In this document: piece by piece, positions 32,262 to 45,146 of the stretch
Layout of the letters: the number at the start of each line of letters is the position of its first letter
Position numbering within the stretch: position 1 is the first letter of the stretch
NCBI RefSeq assembly: GCF_024204665.1
Contig: NZ_CP100355.1
Coordinates: 2,957,451-3,021,450, forward strand
From: Natronosalvus rutilus
GTDB lineage: Archaea > Halobacteriota > Halobacteria > Halobacteriales > Natrialbaceae
Direction: 5' to 3'
DNA: 64,000 nt
Translations under genes and position numbers: made by a program
Notes under the pieces: generated by a model
Seen by the model: the letters and a program-made list of their open reading frames with translations, nothing else
Databases searched by the model: none
Told to the model about the DNA's origin: nothing

Positions 32262-34454
32262 ATGGCACGCGACACTCCGGTCGACTCGAGTAGCGATCAG
32301 CTACCTGAACGTAATCAGCGCCAAACGACTGATGGAATCCTCCATCGGCGTTCGTATCTCAAACTTGCTGGCTCGGCTGCCGGCCTAGTCGCCGGGACAG
32401 GAACGGCGGCGGCCGCCGCTGACGTCGACCCGGACGTCAACATTGTAGATGCCGGTGCGGATAACTCCGGGAACACGTCGATCAACCACGTTCTCGAGTC
32501 CGTTCACGGGAACGGTACGACGATTTACTTTCCGCCGGGAGAGTATCGCCTCGATTCCTTTCATAACGGGGCGGACGACTGGACGTGGTACGGCGAGGAC
32601 GCGAGGTTCGTTGTTCCATCCCACGTCACCGAGAAGTACCTTCACCTGACGGGAAATGGCTGGACCATCGACGGCATCGACATCGACCTGTCCGCTGACG
32701 GCGCGGCCCCGGTCAACTTCCTTCATGGCGGCAACTGGACGTTCAGGAACGTCGAGTTCGTCGGGCGGATGAGCGACCCATCAAACCGCGGCAGTTCGAG
32801 CCTCCTCTATATGGACGCCGACCGCGGCACCCAAGGGCTCGTCGAAAACGTCCGCGCGATGGACGGCTCAGCGGCCGTCGACGAATCGTCTAACCGCGGC
32901 GGACTACGAATCGTCGGCTCCGAGGGTGACCTAACGCTGCGAAACGTAGCGGTCTCGGGCTTCGCGAACAACTCGATGTACTTCCACAACATGCCCGGTC
33001 ACCTGTTGATCGACAACTGCTACCTCGAGGACACGAACACGGGTATCAGAATCGGTGGGAACACGACGGTTCGAGACACCGTGTTCAACCAGTCGCAAGC
33101 CCCACCAGCGCGATGGTCTGGTGCGAGCGCGGCGCGCGGTATCTGGATCAACTCGAATAGCTCGACTTCGGGCGACATCACCATCGAAGGCTGTGAGTTC
33201 GTGATGACCGATCCGAGTGGTGCCCACGCGATTTACACGTCGAATTCTCACGAGGGAATCGAGGTCCGCGATTGCGTGATCCGCCAGGATAGCGACTTTT
33301 ACGCCGTTCAGCTCACCGAGGGCGGTTCAGGACAGACGATCATCGAGAACGTCTCGATCACCGGCGACTCCTCGAAGGCGGGCATCTACCTCAGCGGTCG
33401 GAGCGGTGCTCGACTGCGCAGTCTTTGTCTCCAGAAAGCCGGAGACGGCGTCCGCGTTCGGAACTCGAGCGACGTTCGGGTCGAGAACTCGACGATCAAC
33501 GTCACCGGAAACCCTGTCAGTGGAAGCCCGACCACGAGCGGTATCTCGAATAGCGGAACGTGTCCGGTCCCGGACGGCGACTGGGCACCGGAGGAGACGA
33601 ACGACAAAGATAGCGGGAACGACGACGAACGGGAAGAGGCAACCGAACCCGACGGAACGCCGATCCGTCTCGAGGGCGAAGCCGAGTACCGAATCGCCGT
33701 CAGCGGCGACATCCAACCAGCGCCCGAGATCGCTCAGTGGGTAACCGAAGGCGAACAGTACGGCGACAGCGAGGTCGACTGGTATCTCACCGGCTCATGG
33801 ACGGAGTGGTACTTCACTGGGGAGATCGAAGCGTTCGACCTCGAGAACGTCGAGGAGCTCACCGTCTACCTCGACGGAGAGGAGGTGGACCCGGATGCGC
33901 TCGGAGCGTCCGACGACGCCGAATCAACGGAGAAGACTCTCCGACTCGAGGGTGAGTGCGACTACCTGATTGAGGTCAGCGGCGACATCCGTCCGGATGA
34001 GAAGATCGCTCAGTGGGTGACCGAGGGCGAGCAGTACGGCGATGGGCAGGTCGACTGGTATCTCACCGGCTCATGGACCGAGTGGCACTACACGGGTGAG
34101 ATTGAGACCTTCGAGGTCGACTCGACCGACGACCTTCGAGTCTTCGTCGACGGCGAGGCGGTCGATCCCTACAGTCTGGCCGCGTCGAGTGGGACGGACA
34201 CAGAGTCCGTGTTGCGACTTGAGGGAACTACGGACTACTTCGTAGAAGTGAGCGGCGACATTCGCCCGGACGAGGAAATCGCACAGTGGGTGACCGAGGG
34301 CGAACAGTACGGTGATGGGAAGGTCGACTGGTATCTCACCGAATCCTGGACCCAGTGGTACTTCACCGGCGATATCGAAACGTTCGAAGTGAACTCCACC
34401 GACGACCTTCGGATTTTCGTCGACGGGATCGAAGTGAACACGAACTCGCTGTAG
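32262..34454 (+). CDS. Tat-exported right-handed beta-helix protein with three C-terminal repeats
   Basis: The protein has 730 residues from the ATG at 32262. The frame starts earlier, but this ATG follows a TATA-like tttatgta at 32230-32237. A Tat signal HRRSYLKLAGSAAGLVAG lies near residue 28 and ends in an Ala run. About residues 55-440 have pectate-lyase-like beta-helix character: VDAGADNSGNTSINHVLES, TIYFPPGEYRLDSFHN, then rungs such as LTLRNVAVSGFANNSMYFHN. After an acidic linker come three tandem repeats of about 91 residues sharing EIAQWVTEGEQYGD and VDWYLTGSWTEW. The fold suits polysaccharide binding or cleavage. No catalytic site can be assigned. It opens the surface block. Confidence 0.85.
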   Translation: MARDTPVDSSSDQLPERNQRQTTDGILHRRSYLKLAGSAAGLVAGTGTAAAAADVDPDVNIVDAGADNSGNTSINHVLESVHGNGTTIYFPPGEYRLDSFHNGADDWTWYGEDARFVVPSHVTEKYLHLTGNGWTIDGIDIDLSADGAAPVNFLHGGNWTFRNVEFVGRMSDPSNRGSSSLLYMDADRGTQGLVENVRAMDGSAAVDESSNRGGLRIVGSEGDLTLRNVAVSGFANNSMYFHNMPGHLLIDNCYLEDTNTGIRIGGNTTVRDTVFNQSQAPPARWSGASAARGIWINSNSSTSGDITIEGCEFVMTDPSGAHAIYTSNSHEGIEVRDCVIRQDSDFYAVQLTEGGSGQTIIENVSITGDSSKAGIYLSGRSGARLRSLCLQKAGDGVRVRNSSDVRVENSTINVTGNPVSGSPTTSGISNSGTCPVPDGDWAPEETNDKDSGNDDEREEATEPDGTPIRLEGEAEYRIAVSGDIQPAPEIAQWVTEGEQYGDSEVDWYLTGSWTEWYFTGEIEAFDLENVEELTVYLDGEEVDPDALGASDDAESTEKTLRLEGECDYLIEVSGDIRPDEKIAQWVTEGEQYGDGQVDWYLTGSWTEWHYTGEIETFEVDSTDDLRVFVDGEAVDPYSLAASSGTDTESVLRLEGTTDYFVEVSGDIRPDEEIAQWVTEGEQYGDGKVDWYLTESWTQWYFTGDIETFEVNSTDDLRIFVDGIEVNTNSL
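33663..34454 (+). repeat. Three tandem coding repeats in the beta-helix protein
   Basis: Units start at 33663, 33939 and 34212 (periods 276 and 273 bp). Each encodes LRLEG, a (V/I)SGDI motif, EIAQWVTEGEQYGD, VDWYL, W-(E/Q)W-(Y/H)(F/Y)TG(E/D)IE and a final (V/I)FVDG-like strand. Units 2 and 3 are closest to each other. The pattern suggests a repeated beta-sandwich adhesion or carbohydrate-binding module. Confidence 0.85.
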
Positions 34455-34771
34455 CCGCTGCATCGGTACCCAAACGTTCTTTTCTGCGTCCGGACTGCTC
34501 TGCTGGATCACCCGCACTCGGTCGATACGTAACAGACGAGGCCGGTGCCGTTGGGAGCGTTACCGACGAGCGTGTACCGCGGCCCGGATTGCTCAGCACC
34601 GATAGGGAGTGAATAACGATTTTCCCCGCGATTCAGTCCTTCAATAACAATGTCTGTCTCACCTGACTATCATCGTATGAACAGTAAATTCGCGGGGACG
34701 GCTCGAGCCGCCGTACGTATCCGCTCGAAGAGTGCGCGAGTCACGACTAGGTATGCGAGCAGCCCACGGAT
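34455..34771. other. Intergenic region before the flippase gene
   Basis: 317 bp without a gene. It holds a 9-bp inverted repeat, TCCCCGCGA (34623-34631) and TCGCGGGGA (34690-34698), separated by 58 bp. This could be an operator pair or a long stem in the transcript. No strong TATA was identified before 34772. Confidence 0.45.
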
Positions 34772-36244
34772 ATGAGTCGGCCGGATTCGCTCGGATCTCG
34801 ATTCACAGTCGAGTTCGTCGGTCAGCTCGCCGCGACGGTTGCCGGTGGGCTGCTGACGATTCTCCTCGCCCGGCTGCTCGGTCCCGATGAGTATGGGCTC
34901 CTGTTCCTTGCGATCGCCGTCTTCGGCTCGCTCGGCATCCTCAGCAAACTCGGAATCGCGAAGTCGGGCGCTCGATACATCGCCGAGTACAAGGAACGGC
35001 GACCCGAGCAGATCCCCCACATCATCCGGACGACCGCCTGGTACAACTTGCTGGCCATCGCCGTCGTCGGTACCGCACTGGTCGTCGGTCACCGACACCT
35101 CGCTCGAGTGATCGGAGAGCCGTCATTGACGCCATTTTTGCTCCTCGGCGCTCTCTACCTCGCGCTCGAGGCGAGCAGCACATACGTCCGCCTCATACTG
35201 CAGGGGTTCGAGCAGATCAAGGTATCGGCTGCGGTCCACGCGCTAGACCGCGTGAGTCGTTTGGCGTTCGCCGTGGGCCTCGTTGTCCTCGGATTCGGCG
35301 CCCTTGGTGCTCTCGCCGGTTACCTGCTAAGCTTCGCCTTCGCATCAGCAGTCGGAATTGGCTTTCTCTATGTTCGCCAGTATCGGCCGCTCGACACCGG
35401 CGCGTCGATCGAGGACGGTCTCCGACGAAGGATCGGATCATACACTGTCCCGCTGACCGCGACCAGCACGGCGAACACGCTCGACAAGAAAGTCGACACC
35501 ATTCTCGTCGGCTTCTTCCTCTCGCCGGTCGCAGTCTCCTACTACGTCCTCAGCAAACAGATCGTCCAGTTCGTCGAGACACCCATGTCGGCCCTCGGGT
35601 TCACGCTCTCGCCGACGTTCGGCGCCGAGAAGGCGAGCGACAACATTGAGCGAGCCGCCCGACTGTACGAAACCTCGCTCGTTTACTCGCTGCTCCTCTA
35701 CGTTCCCGTTGGAGCGGGTATCGTCCTCGTCGCCGAACCGACCGTCTCACTCCTGGTCGGTCAGGAGTATCTCGGAGCCGTCCCCGTCCTGCAGGTTCTC
35801 GCGGCGTACGCCGTCTTGCAGGCCGTAACGAACCTCACCAGCAACGGGCTAGACTACCTCGGCCGCGCCCGGTCCCGAGCCGTTGTCAAGGGGACGACGG
35901 CCGCACTGAACGTCGTCCTTAACGTCCTCCTGATACCGACGCTCGGTGTCGTTGGGGCCGCTATCGCGACCGTCATTACGTACTCGATGTACACCCTCGC
36001 GAACGTCTACATCATCCACCAGGAGTTCTCCCTACGTCTCGGCTATCTGGTTCGACGACTCGTCGCCATCGGCGCCATCACGGGCATCATGGCGCTCACG
36101 GTCGCCGCCGTCACCGACTACATCACCTCGATTCCGTCTCTCCTCCTCGTCGTCGGTCTCGGAGTCGTGGTCTGGGGAGCACTCTCGGTGGCGACCGGCC
36201 TACTCGACATCGCCGACGTTCGCTCAACGCTTCAACACTCATGA
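34772..36244 (+). CDS. Polysaccharide/lipid-linked oligosaccharide flippase (Wzx/MOP type)
   Basis: The 490-residue protein has about 12-14 hydrophobic segments throughout. It opens with the family-type start FTVEFVGQLAATVAGGLLTI, then LLARLLGPDEYGLLFLAIAV and KLGIAKSGARYIAEYKERRP. Later FFLSPVAVSYYVLSKQIVQF and LVEPT-like VLVAEPTVSLLVGQEYLGAV match the MOP exporters. Such proteins turn lipid-linked sugars across the membrane for exopolysaccharide, S-layer glycan or lipoglycan synthesis. The stop overlaps the next start (ATGA). No glycosyltransferase lies beside it, which is unusual. Confidence 0.88.
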   Translation: MSRPDSLGSRFTVEFVGQLAATVAGGLLTILLARLLGPDEYGLLFLAIAVFGSLGILSKLGIAKSGARYIAEYKERRPEQIPHIIRTTAWYNLLAIAVVGTALVVGHRHLARVIGEPSLTPFLLLGALYLALEASSTYVRLILQGFEQIKVSAAVHALDRVSRLAFAVGLVVLGFGALGALAGYLLSFAFASAVGIGFLYVRQYRPLDTGASIEDGLRRRIGSYTVPLTATSTANTLDKKVDTILVGFFLSPVAVSYYVLSKQIVQFVETPMSALGFTLSPTFGAEKASDNIERAARLYETSLVYSLLLYVPVGAGIVLVAEPTVSLLVGQEYLGAVPVLQVLAAYAVLQAVTNLTSNGLDYLGRARSRAVVKGTTAALNVVLNVLLIPTLGVVGAAIATVITYSMYTLANVYIIHQEFSLRLGYLVRRLVAIGAITGIMALTVAAVTDYITSIPSLLLVVGLGVVVWGALSVATGLLDIADVRSTLQHS

Positions 36245-38082
36245 CACCGCCAAACCACTCACCGACTTCCGTGGTGGACGACGTTTTGCTCAACCTCGAA
36301 TCCGCTACTGGTGTTTTCGAGACTACAGAAGACGCCTCATCCCCGGTCCCCACTCGCGGACGAGATACGACTCAATCATCCGCTAACGCGCTCATCGACG
36401 TAAAGCGTGACGCGTGGCTGGCGCTCGCCGCGGACGTGATCGACGGCCCTTGTCTAGCCGTCGGTCCCGGATCCGCCCGACGTGCGATTAGTCTGGCATC
36501 GTTCGCCGAGCGCCTGTGCGTCGTCGACTCGAGCGAGTTCGGTCGGCCCGCTTCGACAAATCACGCCAGGGAACCCCACTCGAACCGAGGACCATCGCTC
36601 GCCGATCGTATCGTACACGTCCGTGCACGCGAAGATCGGCTCCCGTTTTCTGCTGGTGCTTTCGAATCCATCGTCGCCGACCTCACCGGTGCGGACGACG
36701 TTCGAGCGCGGCTCGAGAAATTGGTCGACCAGCTGACGGACACGGGCAATCTGACGTTCGTAGCCGACGGGTTCGTCGGCAGGTCCGGGCTTGCCTCGAT
36801 GGCCGGGTTCGGCAAACCCACCGAACCATCGGCCTCGCTCGCGGGCCGCCTCTACGGGACCGCAAACTGGTACCGCTCGGCTGCCGCCGCTCTTGGCTTC
36901 GATGAGGTCACTGTCTACGCCTGCGTGCCGACGGCCTCGAACCCAGCCTACGTAGTTGCCGTCGACGATGAACGGGCTGTCTACCGGATGAGTTCGTTCG
37001 TTCTCGCCGAATTCGAGCGATGGGGAGACCTGGGTGAGAGGGTGCTTTCAACCATACGATCGAGCGAATCCGCGGCCTCCTTGTATCCGGCGCTACTTGA
37101 GCGCCTCTATCCGAGCTTCGTTGTCGTGTGTACGAACGAGTCGTCCGCGCCCAACGTCCTAGGAACCCCGCTGGAGAATGGGGTCGAGCCCCTCCTTCTC
37201 TCGGGACGTGCTCGATCCGTCGTCCTCGAACTAGGCGAACAGGGGATTCGCCGCGTCTGGAAGATTCCTAACTGCCGGGCGAACGCGGCGCTGACCGCCC
37301 GCGAACACACGTTGCTCACCTGGCTTCAAAGCCAGGACACGCCGCTCCGAGGGACGTTTCCTGACGGCACTGCCGTCGAAACACCGTTCGGCACAGCGAG
37401 GATCGAAGAGCCGGTTGGGGGAACTCCCCTGATTGAGCGCCTCGAGGGTGACCCGGAAACGTTCGGCTCTGTGCTCCAGACGGGCCGCAACTGGCTCGTC
37501 GAGTTTCAGCGAACGTTCCGCGGCGATCGTGTCGTACGATCGCCGGATGCGGTACGCGAGGAACTACGCTTCGAGCCGACCGGCATCGAGCCTCCGTCGA
37601 TCTCGGACCCCGTTCCGACGTTCACCACTCCGGTTCACGGTGACTTCATGCCGAGCAACGTCCACGTTCACGACGACGAGTCCATTGCCGGCGTGATCGA
37701 CTGGGAGTACGGCACCGTCGCCGGTTCGCCGATCATCGACGCCGGCCTCTTTCTCCTAGATGCTGCTAATCGCGCCTTTGGGAGCTATCCAGCCGGGTTC
37801 GAGGCCGTCCTCTGTGACTCGAGTGTGCGTCCATCGGCGGCGAAGCCGTTCGTCGAACACGCCCGCGAGTACGTTTCGAGTTACTGCGACGCGCTTGACA
37901 TCCCGGAGCGGACCTTCGGGATCTATTTGCCATCAGTCTACCTCCATCGGCTCGCACTTGACTGGCGTTATGGGACCACGTCCCACTACTCAGAGAAACG
38001 CGTTAACAGGAGTAAGTTCGTGATCGATCTGTTCGAGGCACGGGATTCGATGTGGCTCGAGTGCGAGGAGGTGGCACAGTAA
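36241..38082 (+). CDS. Fused methyltransferase-like and APH-type kinase protein
   Basis: The 613-residue protein is translationally coupled to the flippase. The N-terminal half looks like a class I methyltransferase: CLAVGPGSAR (motif I, residues 71-80), LCVVDSS (motif II), then REDRLPFSAGAFESIVADL. Motif I is somewhat degenerate (GPGSA). The C-terminal half is an aminoglycoside-phosphotransferase-like kinase: HTLLTWLQSQDTPLRG, then PVHGDFMPSNVHVHDDES with catalytic Asp468, and VIDWEYGTVAGSPIIDAG with metal-binding Asp487. Bacterial WbdD combines methyltransferase and kinase to cap O-polysaccharides before export. A similar role is inferred here, not shown. Confidence 0.75.
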   Translation: MTPPNHSPTSVVDDVLLNLESATGVFETTEDASSPVPTRGRDTTQSSANALIDVKRDAWLALAADVIDGPCLAVGPGSARRAISLASFAERLCVVDSSEFGRPASTNHAREPHSNRGPSLADRIVHVRAREDRLPFSAGAFESIVADLTGADDVRARLEKLVDQLTDTGNLTFVADGFVGRSGLASMAGFGKPTEPSASLAGRLYGTANWYRSAAAALGFDEVTVYACVPTASNPAYVVAVDDERAVYRMSSFVLAEFERWGDLGERVLSTIRSSESAASLYPALLERLYPSFVVVCTNESSAPNVLGTPLENGVEPLLLSGRARSVVLELGEQGIRRVWKIPNCRANAALTAREHTLLTWLQSQDTPLRGTFPDGTAVETPFGTARIEEPVGGTPLIERLEGDPETFGSVLQTGRNWLVEFQRTFRGDRVVRSPDAVREELRFEPTGIEPPSISDPVPTFTTPVHGDFMPSNVHVHDDESIAGVIDWEYGTVAGSPIIDAGLFLLDAANRAFGSYPAGFEAVLCDSSVRPSAAKPFVEHAREYVSSYCDALDIPERTFGIYLPSVYLHRLALDWRYGTTSHYSEKRVNRSKFVIDLFEARDSMWLECEEVAQ

Positions 38083-38285
38083 GATACACCGAACCCCGTG
38101 ACTCTCGCATTTTGGTGGAGCGTAGTCAAGTTCGATCAGCAGGGCGAGCGAAACCTGCGGCTCGCAAATTCTACCCCTAAAAGCACACCGACTACGTCAA
38201 ACCCTATTCATCGATCGGTATGGCGAAGAAAAAGCTACATGTTTGAAGAATTATATAGTACCGACTACTGCGGCAGACTGTAAGT

Positions 38286-39035
38286 TCAGATGTCGGGATA
38301 ATCTTTCGGAATTCTGGTGCCTGCAGTGACGGTTTCGCCGTCGTAGCCCGGAATCGAGAGGTGGTTGCCGTTCCGTTCGATAGTGAAGTGTAGGTGAGGA
38401 CCGGTCGAATTACCGGTGTCGCCCATGCCACCGATCTTCTGGCCACGTGCGACGCTCTCTCCTTGCACCACGTCGAAGCTGTTCAGGTGGCAGTACATCG
38501 TCTGGTAGCCATTTCCGTGTCCCAGTTTGAGGTAGTAGCCACAGCCATCTGCCTGGTAACTTCGGATGTCCACGACACCGCTATGGGCCGCGTAAATCGG
38601 TTCGCCGATGTTGCCGTTAGCGCCGAAATCCACCGCGTAGTGACCAGGACGAGCGCCGTACGGAGACGTAATGTATCCTGTAATTGGCCAGTCGAAGTCT
38701 GACTCCGAACCCCCGCCGGAGGTGGACTGGAGGTACCGTTCGACCGACCAACCCCACACGTTCCGGTCGAGCCAGTGGACGCCCCACCACCTGTAGCCAT
38801 CCTTGTCGGTCGGCCCGTTCATGATTTCGCCGACCTCGCCGTTGTTCAGTGTGGCGACGATGGGCGAATCGGTGCCGGGTTGTTCCCGCGTGTTCAGTGC
38901 GCTTGCGGTTACTTCGACGCGCTCGCCGTCGCTAAACGCGCTCACCGAGCCACTCAGTGCTGCAGTTCCGGTGATTCCCGTCGCGGCGATTCCGAGTGAC
39001 TTGACGATCGAACGCCTGCTGAATTTTCGTGGCAT
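38286..39035 (-). CDS. Tat-exported M23 (LytM/lysostaphin-type) metallopeptidase with SH3 domain
   Basis: The protein has 249 residues from the ATG at 39035. A Tat signal (KFSRRSIVKSLGIAATGITG) is followed by an SH3b-like domain (about 38-103: VTASALNTREQPGTDSPIV, then RWWGVHWLDRNVWGWSVERY), a Gly/Ser linker and an M23 domain. Zinc ligands are in place: His132 and Asp136 (GHYAVDFGA) and the HLH motif His214-Leu-His216, with His183 (YCHL) as the usual catalytic partner. M23 enzymes cut peptidoglycan cross-bridges, and SH3b domains bind cell walls. Haloarchaea lack murein, so a bacterial target is a reasonable inference. It stands alone, convergent with the kinase gene. Confidence 0.88.
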   Translation of the reverse strand: MPRKFSRRSIVKSLGIAATGITGTAALSGSVSAFSDGERVEVTASALNTREQPGTDSPIVATLNNGEVGEIMNGPTDKDGYRWWGVHWLDRNVWGWSVERYLQSTSGGGSESDFDWPITGYITSPYGARPGHYAVDFGANGNIGEPIYAAHSGVVDIRSYQADGCGYYLKLGHGNGYQTMYCHLNSFDVVQGESVARGQKIGGMGDTGNSTGPHLHFTIERNGNHLSIPGYDGETVTAGTRIPKDYPDI

Positions 39036-39132
39036 AGCCAAGCACAAAATATATTCATGTATGTTTAATAGTTATTGTTTTTGATATCTCTATTATATAA
39101 ATTTCTCATCAATAGATACTCAACCAGTGATG

Positions 39133-39198
39133 CATTCGCGCCTTGAATTCAGCATGGTCGTTGAAACCTATCACCGTTTGAGGATCTCAACAAAGCCT
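39133..39198 (+). repeat. Dispersed element, copy 1 (decayed)
   Basis: It begins cattcgcgccttgaattc and continues with ggtcgttgaaacctatca, ending tcaacaaagcc. It aligns nearly end to end with 44585-44648. Its inner inverted repeat is damaged. Confidence 0.7.
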
Positions 39199-39764
39199 TC
39201 AAATCCTCCTCGCTCACAGTGTTCGCACAATGTCGTCTTTTGGCCACAGAAACAAATTGACGATCCAGAATTCGAAAGAGGGTCGAAAATTTTCTCGTCC
39301 TTAACCGCAAGAGAGTGTCAACGGCGGCGTTTGAGGATATAGAACATAATTGATGGGCGTTTGTGTAGCCCTCAACTACGAGTACGTATGGTGATCTCGC
39401 GCATACCGGTTCCGGGCTACTAACCGCATGTTCACCCCGACATGGAGTACAGGTTGGACGTAGCAGCGCTTGATTCCAGAGTAACCGCTACACTGAAAGC
39501 GGAAGGTAGGGGTCGCAGTGAATATGCTCCCTAACGAATAGAGGAAATCACAGAGGGATGAGCGCTTCTATGATCGTATTGACCGAAACACTTGGCGGTC
39601 ATAATCACGACAGTTGTCCGGAAGATGTGTGTAGAAGTGATCTAAAGACGAATCTAGGAAGAGATCCTGGAGTAGGCGATTATCGCTCGAGATGACTTTT
39701 CAGGATAGAGGCAAGCGTGAGCGGGAGAAATAGAGTGGCCCGAAAAGAGGGAAAAACCACGCTC

Positions 39765-40336
39765 TCAAAAGTTCATAATCGGTTTCCGTCTTGCGTTTTC
39801 CGGGTTGACGGTAACCAGGTAGAGAAGCTCTACGAAGATAGCCTCGAACCGATTTCACGAAATTGGATTCGGCGGTTTAGAGCCTTCTCTGGAGGGATCT
39901 CACTCACCAACTCGAGCCGAGCGTGTGATCGTCCAGTACACGGTTCAAAAGTTCATAATCGGTTCCCCGCTATCGGTTTTAGGGTGCTAGACAGCACTGG
40001 AGTTACCGATGGGACTGAGACACTTTCCGAGAAGGTAAACGCGCCCAAGAGCGCGTCTCGAACCGGTTATGCACGTTTGACGCCCTGAGCCCTGCATCTA
40101 CGCAGCGAGTACCGGTCTTGAAACGGGACTCGCTCGCCCATCAGCCCTGGAAATCATCGAAACAGACCTGAATATCCCCTAATCGCCTCGAGAGGTCTCC
40201 TACTCGACGATTAGGTCTCAAGCCATGCTCTCGAGGGCGATTCTCATCGTGCAACCGTTCCTAGACGATCTTCATAATCGGCCCTCGAAACAGAGACCAT
40301 ACCTACTCTTCCGGACAGAGAACCCGATTATGAGGT
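39765..40336. repeat. Scattered ttCATAATCGG motifs
   Basis: The string caaaagttcataatcggtt occurs at 39766-39784 and again exactly 180 bp later at 39946-39964. A shorter ttcataatcgg lies at 40271-40281, and the reverse form ccgattatgagg at 40324-40335. The spacing and the loss of similarity outside the motif argue against a CRISPR. They may be protein-binding sites or transposon remnants. Confidence 0.5.
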
Positions 40337-40392
40337 ATCTGAAACGCGATTAGTACGTTTTGTTGTAATCCCCAGTAGATAACAAGAGTTGT

Positions 40393-40420
40393 CTGCTGAA
40401 TACAGAGGTTGGGTGCAGCA
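40393..40420 (+). repeat. Dispersed element, right half only
   Basis: ctgctgaatacagaggttgg followed by gtgcagca matches the right arm of the elements at 41037 and 41729 (TGCTGAATA-AGAGG). No left arm precedes it. It lies 95 bp before the next open frame. Confidence 0.6.
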
Positions 40421-40514
40421 AGTAGGAGGAACGATATGCTTCTCGACGAGCGGTAACCCAATACGGGAGGTGGAGCGGTCGTTTTTTGAGGTGTGGCGGT
40501 CTGACTGAACCTGT

Positions 40515-40983
40515 ATGGACGTGGCCGAGGGCATTGACGTCAATCTGTGCGATTTACGTCGAAGTCGGCGAATACACCATTGCAGAGAGTCTCGAATGGC
40601 TGGCCGATGCAGCGAAAGTCGTGCTCCGGGTTCGTGATGAGGGTGGTGAAGTGACCAACCATCAGTATGAGTATACGTGTCTTGAGCATGCCTTTCTGCT
40701 GTTGGATCGCCTGGAAAAGCGCGAGTCGGGCCGGATGCTATGGGGAACGGGGCTCGTCAATCTTCGGTTCAATGATGAGACGGTAACGCTGGGTGCCAAG
40801 CCCCGTCTCACTGGCCCCGTCGGCGAGTTCCGCGCAGCGACTGAAGCCCTTGTCGCACAATTGTTTGAATATCTACGACGGCACGACATTGATGCCCACG
40901 AGGTGGCGACGAATATTGCAGAAGGTCGGTTTGCCCTATGGGAAATCGACCCAGCTAACGTCCACGACCGGGTCCTGGATTGA
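40515..40983 (+). pseudogene. Hypothetical gene with probable 5' frameshift
   Basis: The main frame (TTG at 40486) gives 165 residues, but its first 25 read implausibly and it has no good start. From YVEVGEYTIAESLEWLADAA onward it looks like a real soluble protein: VTNHQYEYTCLEHAFLLLDR, then NLRFNDETVTLGAKPRLTGP and RRHDIDAHEVATNIAEG. In another frame an ATG at 40515 reads MDVAEGIDVNLC and would join this body if one base were skipped near 40550. The gene therefore appears broken by a single-base change, or the read has an error there. Family not recognised. Confidence 0.55.
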
Positions 40984-41036
40984 GGAATCGCCCCGCTTCT
41001 AACACGTCAGGTAGACACCACTGAGTCTCGATACTG

Positions 41037-41125
41037 CACTCGCGCTCTCTATTCAGCAGACGGAATCAGGCCTGGCGAATTGTTGGCAGGAACTGTGTGC
41101 TGAATATAGAGGATGAGTTTAGCAC
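41037..41125 (+). repeat. Dispersed element, copy 2 (complete)
   Basis: The left arm cgcgctctctattcagcag (from 41041) and the right arm gtgctgaatatagaggatg (from 41097) contain a perfect 9-bp inverted repeat, TATTCAGCA / TGCTGAATA. The right arm closes with a second small inverted repeat (gtgctgaa ... tttagcac, 41097-41125). It starts 54 bp after the preceding gene. Confidence 0.7.
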
Positions 41126-41209
41126 GACGGTATCGTTTGTTTCACGTCGAAACGGATGAACAACCTGTTCGGTAGATGTGCGGATGCCTCACTTCCAATT
41201 ACATCACCA

Positions 41210-41219
41210 AACTTATCAC
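41210..41219 (+). promoter_or_regulatory. Probable TATA box of the small lipoprotein gene
   Basis: aacttatcac lies 23-32 bp before the ATG at 41242, followed by an AT-rich start region. Near-leaderless mRNA expected. Confidence 0.5.
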
Positions 41220-41241
41220 TTAGAATTATTAATAACTTAGC

Positions 41242-41673
41242 ATGGTTTCCGACCATACTCCCTCCAGCGAGGCGTTGTCACGTCGGAAAATCCTTGCATC
41301 CGGTGCTGTGATTGGTGCGACCGGGCTAGCAGGGTGTTCAGGTGATGCCAGTTCTGAGTCCCCCGACTGTACGACAACCGCTCTCGAACACGGTGACGGA
41401 GATGTCCTACAGCAAGCGAGTGCTATGATATCCGATGAATCAGTTGCGCTGCTGGTCTCATTACAGGAATCAGGTGACACACTCCCTATCGAGTCAATTC
41501 TTCTCAAGAACTCTGAAGGCGACCTCCTAAACGAAATCCCCACAACCGATGCTCGTGAATACCGTATCACTATCGGCTCACCACCACACCACGGCCGCCT
41601 CGCACTACTCGCTGAAAACGACCAAAGCGACGAAATCGACTCGATGGAAATCGAATACCACTGTACTGATTAG
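41242..41673 (+). CDS. Small Tat lipoprotein of unknown function
   Basis: The 143-residue protein has a Tat lipoprotein signal: LSRRKILASGAVIGATG followed by lipobox LAGC with Cys at about residue 32. The mature part of about 110 residues has a beta-rich pattern: ESVALLVSLQESGDTLPIES, then LLKNSEGDLLNEIPTTDARE and HGRLALLAENDQSDEIDSME. One further cysteine pair (SPDCTTT and YHCTD) could form a disulfide. Base composition is lower in GC than core genes. It is bounded on both sides by copies of the dispersed element. Function unknown. Confidence 0.75.
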   Translation: MVSDHTPSSEALSRRKILASGAVIGATGLAGCSGDASSESPDCTTTALEHGDGDVLQQASAMISDESVALLVSLQESGDTLPIESILLKNSEGDLLNEIPTTDAREYRITIGSPPHHGRLALLAENDQSDEIDSMEIEYHCTD

Positions 41674-41728
41674 TAACTGAGTCGTCTGATCTCTGCATTC
41701 TCTCTACTGAACGAGTGGGCTGCCCCGA

Positions 41729-41840
41729 GAATGGGCGTCGGTCCCTGCGACATTCGCGCTTTGTATCTTGCAGAGGTGCAGTGAGCTACCGAATCGCTGT
41801 CAAGAGAGCCGTGCAAGATACAGAGGATGTGTGCAGCACG
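41729..41840 (+). repeat. Dispersed element, copy 3 (complete)
   Basis: It begins gaatgggcgtcggtccctgc and has arms TATCTTGCA (41764-41772) and TGCAAGATA (41812-41820), a perfect inverted repeat that extends to 10 bp. The arms differ from copy 2 (TATTCAGCA / TGCTGAATA), yet pairing is kept. It ends gaggatgtgtgcagcac. It starts 56 bp after the lipoprotein gene. Confidence 0.7.
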
Positions 41841-41898
41841 GAGACTACATTTGATTCAGAAAGAAACGACTGAAACACTCATGAGGTAGCTCTGTGAT

Positions 41899-42089
41899 TC
41901 AGACGGTCGTTGGACCTGCTTCGGTCAGATCACCTCTTCGTCGCAGTGTAACATAGTCGGCGCTGATTATCGACTCAGTTGCGGTGTGTTTGAACTCCGC
42001 TCCGCCGCATGCCGGATACTCATCTTGACGGGACCGTAGGTCTCGTTTTCCTGAACCGCTTGCACGAACTCGCCGCACGCCCGGCACAT
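41899..42089 (-). pseudogene. Frameshifted remnant of a small zinc-finger protein
   Basis: From the ATG at 42089 the minus strand reads MCRACGEFVQAVQENETYGPVK. A one-base shift then gives DEYPACGGAEFKHTATES, continuing to the stop at 41899. Together this resembles the small CxxC(G) zinc proteins of haloarchaea, but the second pair is YPAC instead of the expected CPAC (one base change), and the frame is broken. It lies just downstream of the DUF7344-type regulator gene. Confidence 0.45.
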
Positions 42090-42100
42090 TCCCTATTCCA

Positions 42101-42424
42101 TCAGGCGCCCTCCACGTTGGCAGGGAACGCGCGCCACTCCGTCGACGGATGCTCGCAGGCGCATACCGTCCGCGTCCGGGCGTCGTACTCGATGAACCCT
42201 GCTTCAGCCAACTTCGGCAGTGCCACGTGGTGCAGTTCGATGGCGACGTGTCTTCGGTCATCGGTGATCTCGTCTTGGCTGAGGAGTTCGTCGACGAGGT
42301 TCTCAACCGAGGCAACGTCGTCCTCACCGGCCACCAGATATCGCAGGACCTGGCGCCGGTACGCGCTGGCCAGCACATCGCAGAACCTAGTCTGCGTGTC
42401 GCAATCGGTCGGTGGCGCGTTCAT
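42101..42424 (-). CDS. DUF7344-type winged-helix regulator
   Basis: The 107-residue protein reads TRFCDVLASAYRRQVLRYLV near the start, then DDVASVENLVDELLSQDEI, then RRHVAIELHHVALPKLAEAG and FIEYDARTRTVCACEHP. This is the short haloarchaeal regulator type in which a winged helix covers the whole protein. It probably binds DNA as a dimer. It may control the neighbouring HTH_10 gene, which points the same way 73 bp upstream. Target genes are unknown. Confidence 0.75.
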   Translation of the reverse strand: MNAPPTDCDTQTRFCDVLASAYRRQVLRYLVAGEDDVASVENLVDELLSQDEITDDRRHVAIELHHVALPKLAEAGFIEYDARTRTVCACEHPSTEWRAFPANVEGA

Positions 42425-42497
42425 ATATACTCGCAGTCATCCACTACAGTTGGAACTCACTATTGAAGGGTCAACCCTTTTTTGAGTAGGGTTCGTC

Positions 42498-43157
42498 TCA
42501 CCTGAGGTCGCTTGCAGACGTGAGCAACACCTGCTGGAGGATCTTCTCGTTCCCGCGGCGAATCCGGTTCGAGACGGCCTGCTCGCTGATGTCGAGTTCC
42601 TCAGCGAGGGCGTCGAGCCCGGTCTCTCGCGGGGTGGCGAAGTACCCCCGCCGGGCGGCGAGGACCAGGGCCTCGCGCTGTTCTTGAGAGAGGTTGAACC
42701 GGTGACCACGCTCGGTCGTTTCGGTCAACGTGTACGTCCGGTCGATGTGAATCGGGAGGTCGTGTTCGAGGATGAAATTGTGAAAGAGCGAGAGCTTGTC
42801 GTGATCGGGTAAGCGCAGCCGGAAGGTCCACTGTTCGTTGCCGCGGGCATCGAGGACGACCGCGTCTGCCTCCGCAATCCCTTCGATGAGGTCGGTCGGG
42901 TCGTCTGTCCATACGATCCGATACAGGGCACTCTCTTCGACCGTGTCCAGTGCGAGGAACTCCTTGACCGCCGGATGGGCCTGGACTTGTGCCTCGAATG
43001 CGTCGTGGCTGTCGCCGGTCGCCCAGATGAACGGCATAATCATGGGTCCCGTCGGGACGATGCGTTCGAGTTCGAGGTGCATATTCGGGGTTCCCGAGAG
43101 AACCTCCCCGAGCTGAAAGTCCTCACTGCCAATGGTGAACTCCAGGATGACACTCAT
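42498..43157 (-). CDS. Bat-like HTH_10 transcriptional regulator
   Basis: The protein has 219 residues from the ATG at 43157 (MSVILEFTIGSEDFQLGEVL), the usual start of this family. The longer frame to 43370 adds unlikely sequence. The N-terminal region is a bacterioopsin-activator-like sensor domain (HLELERIVPTGPMIMPFIWA, then ALYRIVWTDDPTDLIEGI). The C-terminal HTH_10 is complete: LSQEQREALVLAARRGYFAT, then PRETGLDALAEELDISEQAV and SNRIRRGNEKIL. It probably senses a signal and activates local genes. It faces a histidine kinase gene across a 287-bp gap. Confidence 0.85.
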   Translation of the reverse strand: MSVILEFTIGSEDFQLGEVLSGTPNMHLELERIVPTGPMIMPFIWATGDSHDAFEAQVQAHPAVKEFLALDTVEESALYRIVWTDDPTDLIEGIAEADAVVLDARGNEQWTFRLRLPDHDKLSLFHNFILEHDLPIHIDRTYTLTETTERGHRFNLSQEQREALVLAARRGYFATPRETGLDALAEELDISEQAVSNRIRRGNEKILQQVLLTSASDLR

Positions 43158-43444
43158 GAACCGCCAAACGGGAGCCAGCAATGTGAACTCCTCGGGGTCA
43201 AGCCCCGAGGCACTCGGCCTGCTTTTCCTGTAGAGATTTCCTGCCCCGGGTTGATCGAGCAAGCGGAGTACTTGGCGTTCCCTGTCAGCTGCAGTCTCTG
43301 TGCTGCATCTGCGCCACGTATCTCGTACACCTTGCTCGACCTCTCGAAGGTTACCAGGAGTGGCGTGCAAGATCCAGAGAGTGTCCCGTCTCCTGTAACC
43401 AGAATGGGAACAACGTTATCTACGTCAGCCTTCTGGAAACGGAT
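43158..43444. other. Gap between regulator and kinase with a strong hairpin
   Basis: 287 bp. It includes a perfect 8-bp stem (43190-43210), a right-arm-like fragment of the dispersed element (gtgcaagatccagagag, 43365-43381) and a TATA-like cgttatcta at 43414-43422 for the kinase gene. Confidence 0.5.
43190..43210. repeat. Perfect hairpin CCTCGGGG-tcaag-CCCCGAGG
   Basis: An 8-bp perfect GC-rich stem with a 5-base loop lies 32 bp upstream of the HTH_10 start. Such stems occur at ends of IS200/IS605-type elements. No transposase remains beside it, so it may be a remnant or a regulatory stem. Confidence 0.5.
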
Positions 43445-44530
43445 ATGAATGCCCGGGAGCCAGAGACTCTTATTCCGGCGGCTGTAGAGACACTCCCGAT
43501 CAACTTTGCAATCCTCGATGACGAAGGGACGATCCTGTATACGAATCGTGCATGGCAGGAGTTTGGCAAGGCGAACGATATCGATATTCGGCCAGATACC
43601 ATCGGAACTAACTATCTGACGATCACCAGACAAGCGGAGACGGAAACGGCACAGACGGCTGCTGCCGGGCTATCCGAGATTTTGACGGGCGGACGGGAAC
43701 TCTTCGAGTTCGAATATCCGTGCCACTCTCCCGACAACCAGCGGTGGTTTCTCATGCGGGCAGCATCGTTCACCGACGGTGAGCAGCGATACGTCGCTGT
43801 TGCGCATTTCGACATCACCGATCGATACACGTATCAGCGCCGGTTGGAAGAATCCAACGAGCGTCTCCAGCAGTTCGCCAGCGTTGCCTCTCACGACCTG
43901 CAAGAGCCGTTACGGATGGTCACGAGCTACCTGCAACTGCTCGAGAGTCGGTATAGCGACGAACTCGACGAGGACGCCAAAGAGTTCATCGAGTTCGCAG
44001 TTGATGGTGCCGAGCGGATGGAGGCAATGATCGACGGGTTGCTTACGTATTCCAGAGTCGAAACACAGGGGAAGCCCTTCGATTCAGTCAATCTGGAGGC
44101 AGTACTCGACGATGTGTTGACGGATCTTGATATCCGACTCGACGAAACCGGTGCTAAAATCACTGCTGAACCGCTGCCGACTGTCAGCGGTGACGCCAGC
44201 CAACTTCGCCAACTCTTTCAGAACCTGATGGAAAACGCTCTCCAGTACAGCGGCGAGCAGGAACCCCGAGTAGCAATCTCTGCGACGCGTGACGAGGAGG
44301 AGTGGATCGTTTCGGTCAGTGACGAGGGGATCGGTATCGATCAGGAGGATGCAGATCGCGTTTTCAAGGTGTTCCAGCGACTTCACAGCCACGAGGAGTA
44401 CGAAGGGACAGGGATCGGTCTCGCACTTTGCAAGCGAATTGTGGAACGACACGGCGGGGAAATTTGGATTGACTCGAACCCAGACGACGGCTCGACGTTC
44501 TCGTTTACGCTTCCGGCTGCCGATACGTAA
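43445..44530 (+). CDS. PAS-domain sensor histidine kinase
   Basis: The 361-residue soluble kinase has a PAS domain (about residues 15-125: INFAILDDEGTILYTNRAWQ, then AHFDITD). The HisKA region has phospho-accepting His150 in SVASHDLQEPLRMV. The HATPase region shows N box QNLMENALQYS, G1 VSDEGIGIDQED, F box VFKVFQRLHS and G2 GTGIGLALCKRIVERHGG. It has no membrane helix, so it senses an internal signal. No response regulator receiver gene is adjacent, which is common for orphan kinases of haloarchaea. Confidence 0.92.
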   Translation: MNAREPETLIPAAVETLPINFAILDDEGTILYTNRAWQEFGKANDIDIRPDTIGTNYLTITRQAETETAQTAAAGLSEILTGGRELFEFEYPCHSPDNQRWFLMRAASFTDGEQRYVAVAHFDITDRYTYQRRLEESNERLQQFASVASHDLQEPLRMVTSYLQLLESRYSDELDEDAKEFIEFAVDGAERMEAMIDGLLTYSRVETQGKPFDSVNLEAVLDDVLTDLDIRLDETGAKITAEPLPTVSGDASQLRQLFQNLMENALQYSGEQEPRVAISATRDEEEWIVSVSDEGIGIDQEDADRVFKVFQRLHSHEEYEGTGIGLALCKRIVERHGGEIWIDSNPDDGSTFSFTLPAADT

Positions 44531-45146
44531 ACGACTCGTATTGAACGATTGGACTCCTTTCAGAATGGGCGTCTGCCCGTGCGACATTCGCGCTCTGTAT
44601 GCAGCACGGTCGTTGAAACCTATCATCTCTTGGGGTTTCAACAAAGCCAATGAAGTATTCTCCGCGCACAGGTAGAACCGTCCGCTCAAAAACCAGTCCG
44701 AGTGGTGGCCGGATTCATTGTCCCAGTCGACACCACGGCAGGGCGGTGAAATCGGATACTGACGGGAGATTTCGAAACGAGTGAAAACAGGATGTACTTG
44801 TCCAGGGTCAAACAGTTCTATTTCCCTTCACTCTGAAGTTTGGCTATCTCGTGACCGTCTGGAAGAAGCGAACTGGACAGATAACGTGGATGCAAGTACC
44901 GGATTGACTGAGTTCGTCGTAGGAGCGGTTGGCTACTTTGTGAACAAAGAAACTAACTGTGTTCAACTGTGTTTGGCGTCGACCGTCAGAATGGAGGTTT
45001 TGCGCGCGAGAACTCAGTAGTAGATGCTAGACGTGGTAGAGTACCGTTCACCGCGTTATTCAACTCAAACAGTGAGTGCGTTAGCGCGGAGCCAATCAGC
45101 TTCCCGTCTGCCGATTATCGTGACTCACTTTCGTGAATTAATTAAG
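44531..45146. other. Gap after the kinase with a repeat copy
   Basis: About 615 bp. It holds copy 4 of the dispersed element (44563-44648). One open frame of 79 codons (44781-45020) has no motif, poor composition and no promoter, so I do not call it. The end is AT-rich towards the tRNA terminator. Confidence 0.55.
44563..44648 (+). repeat. Dispersed element, copy 4
   Basis: It opens gaatgggcgtctgcccgtgc as copy 3 does, keeps the left arm cattcgcgctctgtatgcag, then switches to the sequence shared with copy 1. This includes a perfect 9-bp inverted repeat GTTGAAACC (44612-44620) / GGTTTCAAC (44634-44642). It starts 33 bp after the histidine kinase stop. Confidence 0.7.

Follow-up and report, generated by a model that had tools for sequence, protein, structure and literature searches.

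Does a haloarchaeal protein that joins a methyltransferase-like half to a kinase half, and whose gene starts within the stop of a polysaccharide flippase gene, mark a surface glycan, and does it do so in the manner of the bacterial capping enzymes? We know of no methyltransferase-kinase family of this kind in archaea, and, to our knowledge, glycan phosphorylation and methylation are combined in one enzyme solely for bacterial polymers exported by ABC transporters. No such archaeal protein came up in the literature, as judged by titles and abstract openings, most subscription journals lying outside the coverage. Previously, as far as the available text of two reports goes, methyltransferase-kinase proteins have been shown to make methyl-phosphate caps (PMC3482155, PMC11231755). 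WbdD of E. coli O9a is described there with a eukaryote-type kinase, a trimeric coiled-coil ruler, an ABC exporter and a mannan polymerase (PMC3482155, PMC11231755); the mannan end is phosphorylated and then methylated (PMC3482155). Klebsiella O7 ORF6, whose kinase is AmiN-like, is described as phosphorylating and then methylating its own polymer (PMC11231755). The initial annotation of our locus took WbdD, which caps O-antigen chains and sets their length before export, as its model, and raised a capping role in an archaeal surface polymer.

The locus lies in a 64,000-nucleotide stretch (the window) of a 4.3 Mb haloarchaeal genome from the genus Natronosalvus (Table 1). Translation of 36241-38082 (+) gives 613 codons without a stop, and bases 36241-36244 read ATGA, so that the start overlaps the TGA stop of the flippase, as had been annotated. 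The Polysacc_synt profiles place this partner in the Wzx/MOP flippase class: in Pfam it matches PF13440 (E=1.8e-26, 93.5 bits vs a cut-off of 23) and PF01943 (E=1.5e-25, 90.6 bits vs a cut-off of 28.2), and MATE more weakly (E=4.4e-10). The beta-helix protein upstream carries a putative twin-arginine-like signal. Pfam scans of window neighbours, including ten further proteins between ~22 and 47 kb, revealed no glycosyltransferase. Therefore, the cassette is small, and the genes that make the glycan presumably lie outside it.

Table 1. Positions of the fusion gene, its domains and motifs, and the adjoining genes in the window.
Feature	Position	Strand	Basis
Fused methyltransferase-like/APH-type kinase protein, 613 aa	36241..38082	+	ORF, Pfam, AF2 model, structure matches
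Class I methyltransferase-like domain, residues ~56-300	36406..37140	+	AF2 model, structure matches; Methyltransf_11/25 in relatives
Degenerate SAM motif I CLAVGPGSARR, residues 71-81	36451..36483	+	Family alignment
APH-type kinase domain, residues ~305-603	37153..38049	+	Pfam APH; structure matches (best VIA Z 15.3)
Invariant lysine K341	37261..37263	+	Kept in 30/30
Catalytic loop HGDFMPSN, residues 466-473	37636..37659	+	H, G, D and N kept in 30/30
Metal-binding DWE, residues 487-489	37699..37707	+	Same in all 30; D487 in 30/30
Wzx/MOP-type polysaccharide flippase, 490 aa	34772..36244	+	Pfam; stop shares 4 bases with fusion start
Right-handed beta-helix protein	32262..34454	+	317 bases before flippase, same strand

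The kinase half is readily assigned. Residues 460-514 match the Pfam APH family (PF01636) at 39.2 bits against a curated cut-off of 23.2, and the half bears HGDxxxxN (466-473) and IDWE (486-489). K341, H466, G467, D468, N473 and D487 are each kept in all 30 aligned members, 28 of which match Pfam APH at E<=0.01; we infer from its position that K341 is the ATP-binding lysine. Profile and catalytic residues together place this half among the APH phosphotransferases, and phosphorylation of a hydroxyl acceptor at the expense of ATP or GTP is the activity predicted from sequence. The fusion protein is like the PF01636 family in profile score, HGDxxxxN and DWE, but unlike it in being fused to a methyltransferase and in its glycan gene setting. 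The intact kinase motifs read by the initial annotation were thus upheld across the family. In three genomes of another family (G141, G143 and G188; L093, L094), partial matches cover the kinase half alone (E ~1e-26 to 1e-25); these may be kinases joined to some other domain.

Structure models gave both halves a fold. The AF2 model of the window protein has a mean pLDDT of 70.1 and a pTM of 0.71, with residues 1-55 below 50, and that of a relative (L060) a mean pLDDT of 65.9; both models are moderate and were built from 6-sequence alignments. Foldseek placed SAM methyltransferases at the top for the window model (TleD, E 3.6e-7), with macrolide kinases following from 3.3e-6. The initial annotation had staked its reading on the N-terminal half not adopting some other fold, and in this respect it held. 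In VIA-align, the best kinase match was APH(3'')-Id (Z 15.3, rmsd 3.4, 227 aligned), NahK (4ocj; Z 12.5, rmsd 4.4, 266 aligned) was also matched, and residues 42-300 matched the methyltransferase SpnL (Z 13.1, rmsd 4.5, 188 aligned). The L060 model gave LicA (Z 14.5, rmsd 4.2, 240 aligned), APH(3'')-Id (13.9) and hAmiN (13.7), which are ties within 1; AmiN (6sum, hAmiN) also matched the window model at 12.5. WbdD (4azt) appeared for L060 in Foldseek at rank 22 (E=1.2e-4, 608 columns), with a TM-score of 0.18-0.25. Such a low TM-score over 608 columns fits, in these models, two similar domains in another arrangement. Elsewhere WbdD was not among the matches listed (60 sequence-profile rows and 50 rows per VIA list), which is uninformative. 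An N terminus of low model confidence and two domains account for the 613 residues; kinase fold matches end at residue 600-609, leaving ~13 residues beyond the kinase fold.

The methyltransferase half presents a different picture. No methyltransferase profile in Pfam matches the window protein itself, whereas Methyltransf_11 matches 20 and Methyltransf_25 19 of the 30 aligned members. Its motif I reads CLAVGPGSARR, compared with, for example, CLDVGAGFGRR in relatives, with A73 and A79 where D and G stand in most members; the degeneracy noted in the initial annotation is thus real. In other words, the window copy has the class I SAM methyltransferase fold but not its motif I. Across the family, motif I (D/E73, G77, G79) is intact in 22/30, with ~5 changes on the kinase tree; the eight others are the window copy, its sister L033, L046, L055, L056, L057 and both L059 copies. 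When an acidic residue 96 is also required, 17/30 pass. An N-terminal zinc-ribbon pattern, sought by regular expression, is present in 15/30 and absent from the window copy and L033.

Between the window copy and L033, identity is 74% for the flippase and 57% for the kinase half, against 34% for the methyltransferase half, indicating that the last is drifting in this lineage. The branches leading to the two copies are 0.58 and 1.37 in the methyltransferase half vs 0.27 and 0.56 in the kinase half, and all kinase residues tested are retained in both. Furthermore, the two halves give concordant trees (patristic r=0.88), and five close pairs were compared in which dN stays below dS for either half (methyltransferase half, 0.045/0.239 to 0.248/0.723). 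The fusion is therefore old and selected. Within it, the kinase half stays constant, and the methyltransferase half can be dispensed with.

Matches at E<=1e-20 occur in 27 of 125 genomes of the same family (Natrialbaceae), spread over 12 of 29 genera. In 26 of the 27, one match spans most of both halves; the exception (G021) shows two pieces of one open frame. Such recurrence takes the fusion beyond chance. A profile search matched 31/391 genomes of a class sample and 7/294 of a phylum sample, all of these genomes belonging to the same taxonomic order, and G096, G141, G143 and G188, among others, gave partial matches only. One match was found among 72,556 plasmid records. In genome contigs, a single-protein query returned no relatives and an alignment query five loci. 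Methylation of the haloarchaeal phospholipid PGP-Me was considered as a function and rejected because the family is so patchy in the class sample.

The coupling to the flippase, proposed from the one locus, extends through the family. A polysaccharide flippase lies within 1 kb of the fusion gene in 22/30 loci; it is upstream on the same strand in 19/30, with the 4-base ATGA overlap in 6/30. With ~69 flippases (E<=1e-40) in the ~116 Mb of the 27 genomes, both hand-summed, a flippase would fall within 1 kb of a random gene with a chance of ~0.3%, a rough value that ignores relatedness. At several loci (L047, L049, L051-L053) the two genes form a unit of their own beside other conserved chromosomal genes. 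The flippase is 7.9 kb away in L048, and none was found in the fetched stretch at 7/30 loci (L043, L050, L055, L056, L057 and both L059). Flippases at least 62% identical to that of the window, a cut-off picked after seeing the list, occur in 12 genomes, and all 12 have the fusion gene as well (p ~1e-9 on the assumption of independent genomes, which does not hold). In 11 of these, the dedicated flippase and the fusion gene are adjacent; in G021 they are ~150 kb apart. The G021 flippase is followed by a 604 aa protein (L104:7154-8968), asparagine-synthase-like by eye.

The wider neighbourhoods agree with the surface-polymer setting that the initial annotation had assumed. A flippase, a beta-helix protein or a glycan-synthesis gene is present in the fetched stretch at 29/30 loci, and surface-polymer genes at five of six further loci (L095-L100). 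That annotation would have been weakened by relatives lacking such genes, and these are marginal: no recognised surface-polymer gene was seen in the fetched stretch of L050, nor at L095, and both sit among apparent housekeeping genes. Neighbour functions were assigned per cluster, one representative of each being scanned with Pfam. They include two glycosyltransferase types, sugar epimerases, a Bac_transf sugar transferase, a deacetylase, a GNAT acetyltransferase, a sulfatase and a phosphodiesterase; some frequent clusters have no Pfam match. A beta-helix protein adjoins the fusion at many loci. On a plasmid of Halomontanus rarus, annotated independently of this analysis, the order is DUF6541 protein, flippase, phosphotransferase, beta-helix, polysaccharide deacetylase, beta-helix, with some hypothetical proteins interspersed. 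A motif scan found ABC-like ATPases at 4/30 loci, the nearest 6.2 kb away.

Two sister genomes close to that of the window (G112 and G113; DnaK 99%, TrkA/DHH 98-99% identical) have a shorter site. In G112, tblastn found neither flippase nor fusion gene at the site, and the beta-helix and M23 genes are retained. In G113, the beta-helix gene and the last 163 flippase codons are kept, about two thirds of the flippase are missing, and the fusion gene left no trace. Thus, the two genes of the pair are missing jointly, and the beta-helix gene can be separated from them. G096 provides a counter-case, where an intact flippase open frame stands beside a fusion remnant of ~125 residues over two frames (L103:8855-9219, -), so a flippase can outlive the fusion gene.

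ATP and SAM are cytoplasmic, and the fusion protein should therefore act before the flippase. On this basis, we suggest, at about an even chance, that it is a cytoplasmic glycan-tailoring enzyme, with the kinase phosphorylating a lipid-linked surface glycan, the partner flipping it, and methylation being optional. A sugar chain would be assembled on a lipid carrier at the cytoplasmic side of the membrane; the APH-type kinase would use ATP to phosphorylate one of its hydroxyls, and the Wzx-type flippase would then take the chain so marked to the exterior. Most relatives may have an active SAM methyltransferase as their N-terminal half, working on the same chain, either at the phosphate, as WbdD and Klebsiella O7 ORF6 do, or at a sugar. 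In the window copy and its closest sister, where the SAM motif is lost, this half would probably only bind or position the substrate, and the mark would probably be phosphate alone. Since the kinase is invariant and the methyltransferase dispensable, the window locus more probably yields a phosphate mark than a methyl-phosphate cap. The two predicted folds, the invariant kinase residues, the repeated losses at motif I, the pairing with the flippase and the joint absence all support tailoring; acceptor and reaction order are inferred. Against it count the many small molecules that APH folds phosphorylate, the lack of a glycosyltransferase among scanned neighbours, and the housekeeping surroundings of L050 and L095. 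The G096 remnant, the loci without a flippase, the distance in L048 and the separation in G021 weigh on the same side.

The structural matches suggest another acceptor. A kinase like NahK or LicA might phosphorylate a free sugar and so activate a glycan precursor, with the methyltransferase half modifying that precursor; APH-fold sugar/choline kinases, LicA and NahK 4ocj, are indeed among the close matches. However, the tightest partner is a flippase, also in the two-gene units, and this better suits a late step. We consider this explanation unlikely.

Unlikely, too, is a chain terminator as in WbdD, where phosphorylation (with or without methylation) of the non-reducing end would halt polymerisation and set chain length. 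The domain order shared with WbdD and Klebsiella O7 ORF6, the appearance of WbdD among the L060 matches, and surface-polymer genes close to most loci speak for it. In contrast, the ~13 residues past the kinase fold leave no room for a coiled-coil ruler, and the partner is a Wzx-type flippase rather than an ABC exporter, ABC-ATPase-like proteins being rare and none of them nearer than 6.2 kb. Besides, the kinase is of the APH type and not that of WbdD, and the TM-score to WbdD is low. Kinship with WbdD and control of chain length are thus not supported for this protein.

That the window copy is merely a decaying gene, in a cassette on its way out, we consider quite improbable. Its lost motif I, missing zinc ribbon and fast methyltransferase branches (shared with its sister), the absence of the gene from G112 and G113, and a codon score low against that of the flippase would all agree with decay, but 613 codons remain open and the tested kinase residues are kept here and in L033. 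A drug-modifying APH paired with an exporter for self-protection is hardly credible, even with APH and macrolide kinases as the nearest solved kinases and weaker MATE matches in the flippase, because polysaccharide flippase profiles fit the partner much better than MATE does (1.8e-26 vs 4.4e-10) and glycan genes are the neighbours.

If the glycan-tailoring reading is right, a further step can be envisioned, to which we give only a small chance: the phosphate mark, with a methyl group in most lineages, would serve as an export licence, written by the kinase and read by a dedicated type of flippase. Recognition of the mark by the flippase is suggested by the pairing of the genes. Were this true, it would be the flippase counterpart of the bacterial phosphate-based cap linked to ABC export, and would generalise the transient methylation that dolichol-linked glycan undergoes in Halobacterium salinarum, for which Lechner 1985 is reportedly the source. 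As stated in the available text of one report, the methyl group of Halobacterium occurs solely while the glycan is lipid-linked and is believed to be important for its passage through the membrane (PMC4335974). The two systems would be alike in placing a haloarchaeal mark on a lipid-linked glycan; they differ in that a single methyltransferase and no kinase is proposed there, as far as that text goes, and in that the glycan marked there is an N-glycan, and here would be a surface polymer. The ABC-exported S-layer glycan of Clostridium difficile, as partly described, has a modified phosphate in its terminal group (PMC6254364).

Taken together, this is a real, conserved, flippase-coupled family that is functionally comparable to the bacterial methyltransferase-kinase glycan enzymes and fails the defining features of WbdD. 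With WbdD it shares the methyltransferase-then-kinase order, a class I methyltransferase fold and a surface-polymer setting. It differs in a kinase assigned to APH (28/30 members) and not to the eukaryote-type protein kinases; coiled coil, ABC exporter and mannan polymerase belong to WbdD, and none was found for the fusion. ORF6 of Klebsiella pneumoniae O7 is the closer analogue, likened by its description rather than by sequence: as its report partly describes, an N-terminal methyltransferase precedes an APH-like, AmiN-nearest kinase in a glycan setting (PMC11231755). The carbohydrate-binding domain, coiled coil and fused glycosyltransferase modules described for ORF6 are lacking in the fusion, which is archaeal, has a flippase instead of an ABC exporter as its partner, and has lost motif I in the window copy. 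Through a flippase-linked haloarchaeal family, phosphorylation and methylation chemistry would reach another domain of life and another export route. The enzyme pair could also be used to ask for what reason a lipid-linked glycan is marked ahead of its export in a haloarchaeon, a question left open in the available text of an earlier report (PMC4335974). Furthermore, a methyltransferase site lost repeatedly next to a kinase that does not vary amounts to a natural experiment to tell which mark is important.

Some further features of the window are worth recording. The stretch 34540-45144, between dnaK and the TrkA/DHH gene, is a presence/absence region where similarity to G112 and G113 breaks and the contents differ in each. 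It includes an M23-type peptidase with an SH3-like domain at 38286-39047 (-), which scores 188 bits with an NCBIfam peptidoglycan hydrolase model (cut-off 500); bacterial peptidoglycan is absent from archaea. No similarity to this gene was seen at the G113 site, and G112 has retained it. Finally, the beta-helix gene holds three tandem units of ~91 codons at its C-terminal end (33664-34441), 69-76% identical in DNA to the first copy, and C-terminal units resembling these repeats, judged by eye, occur in another member.
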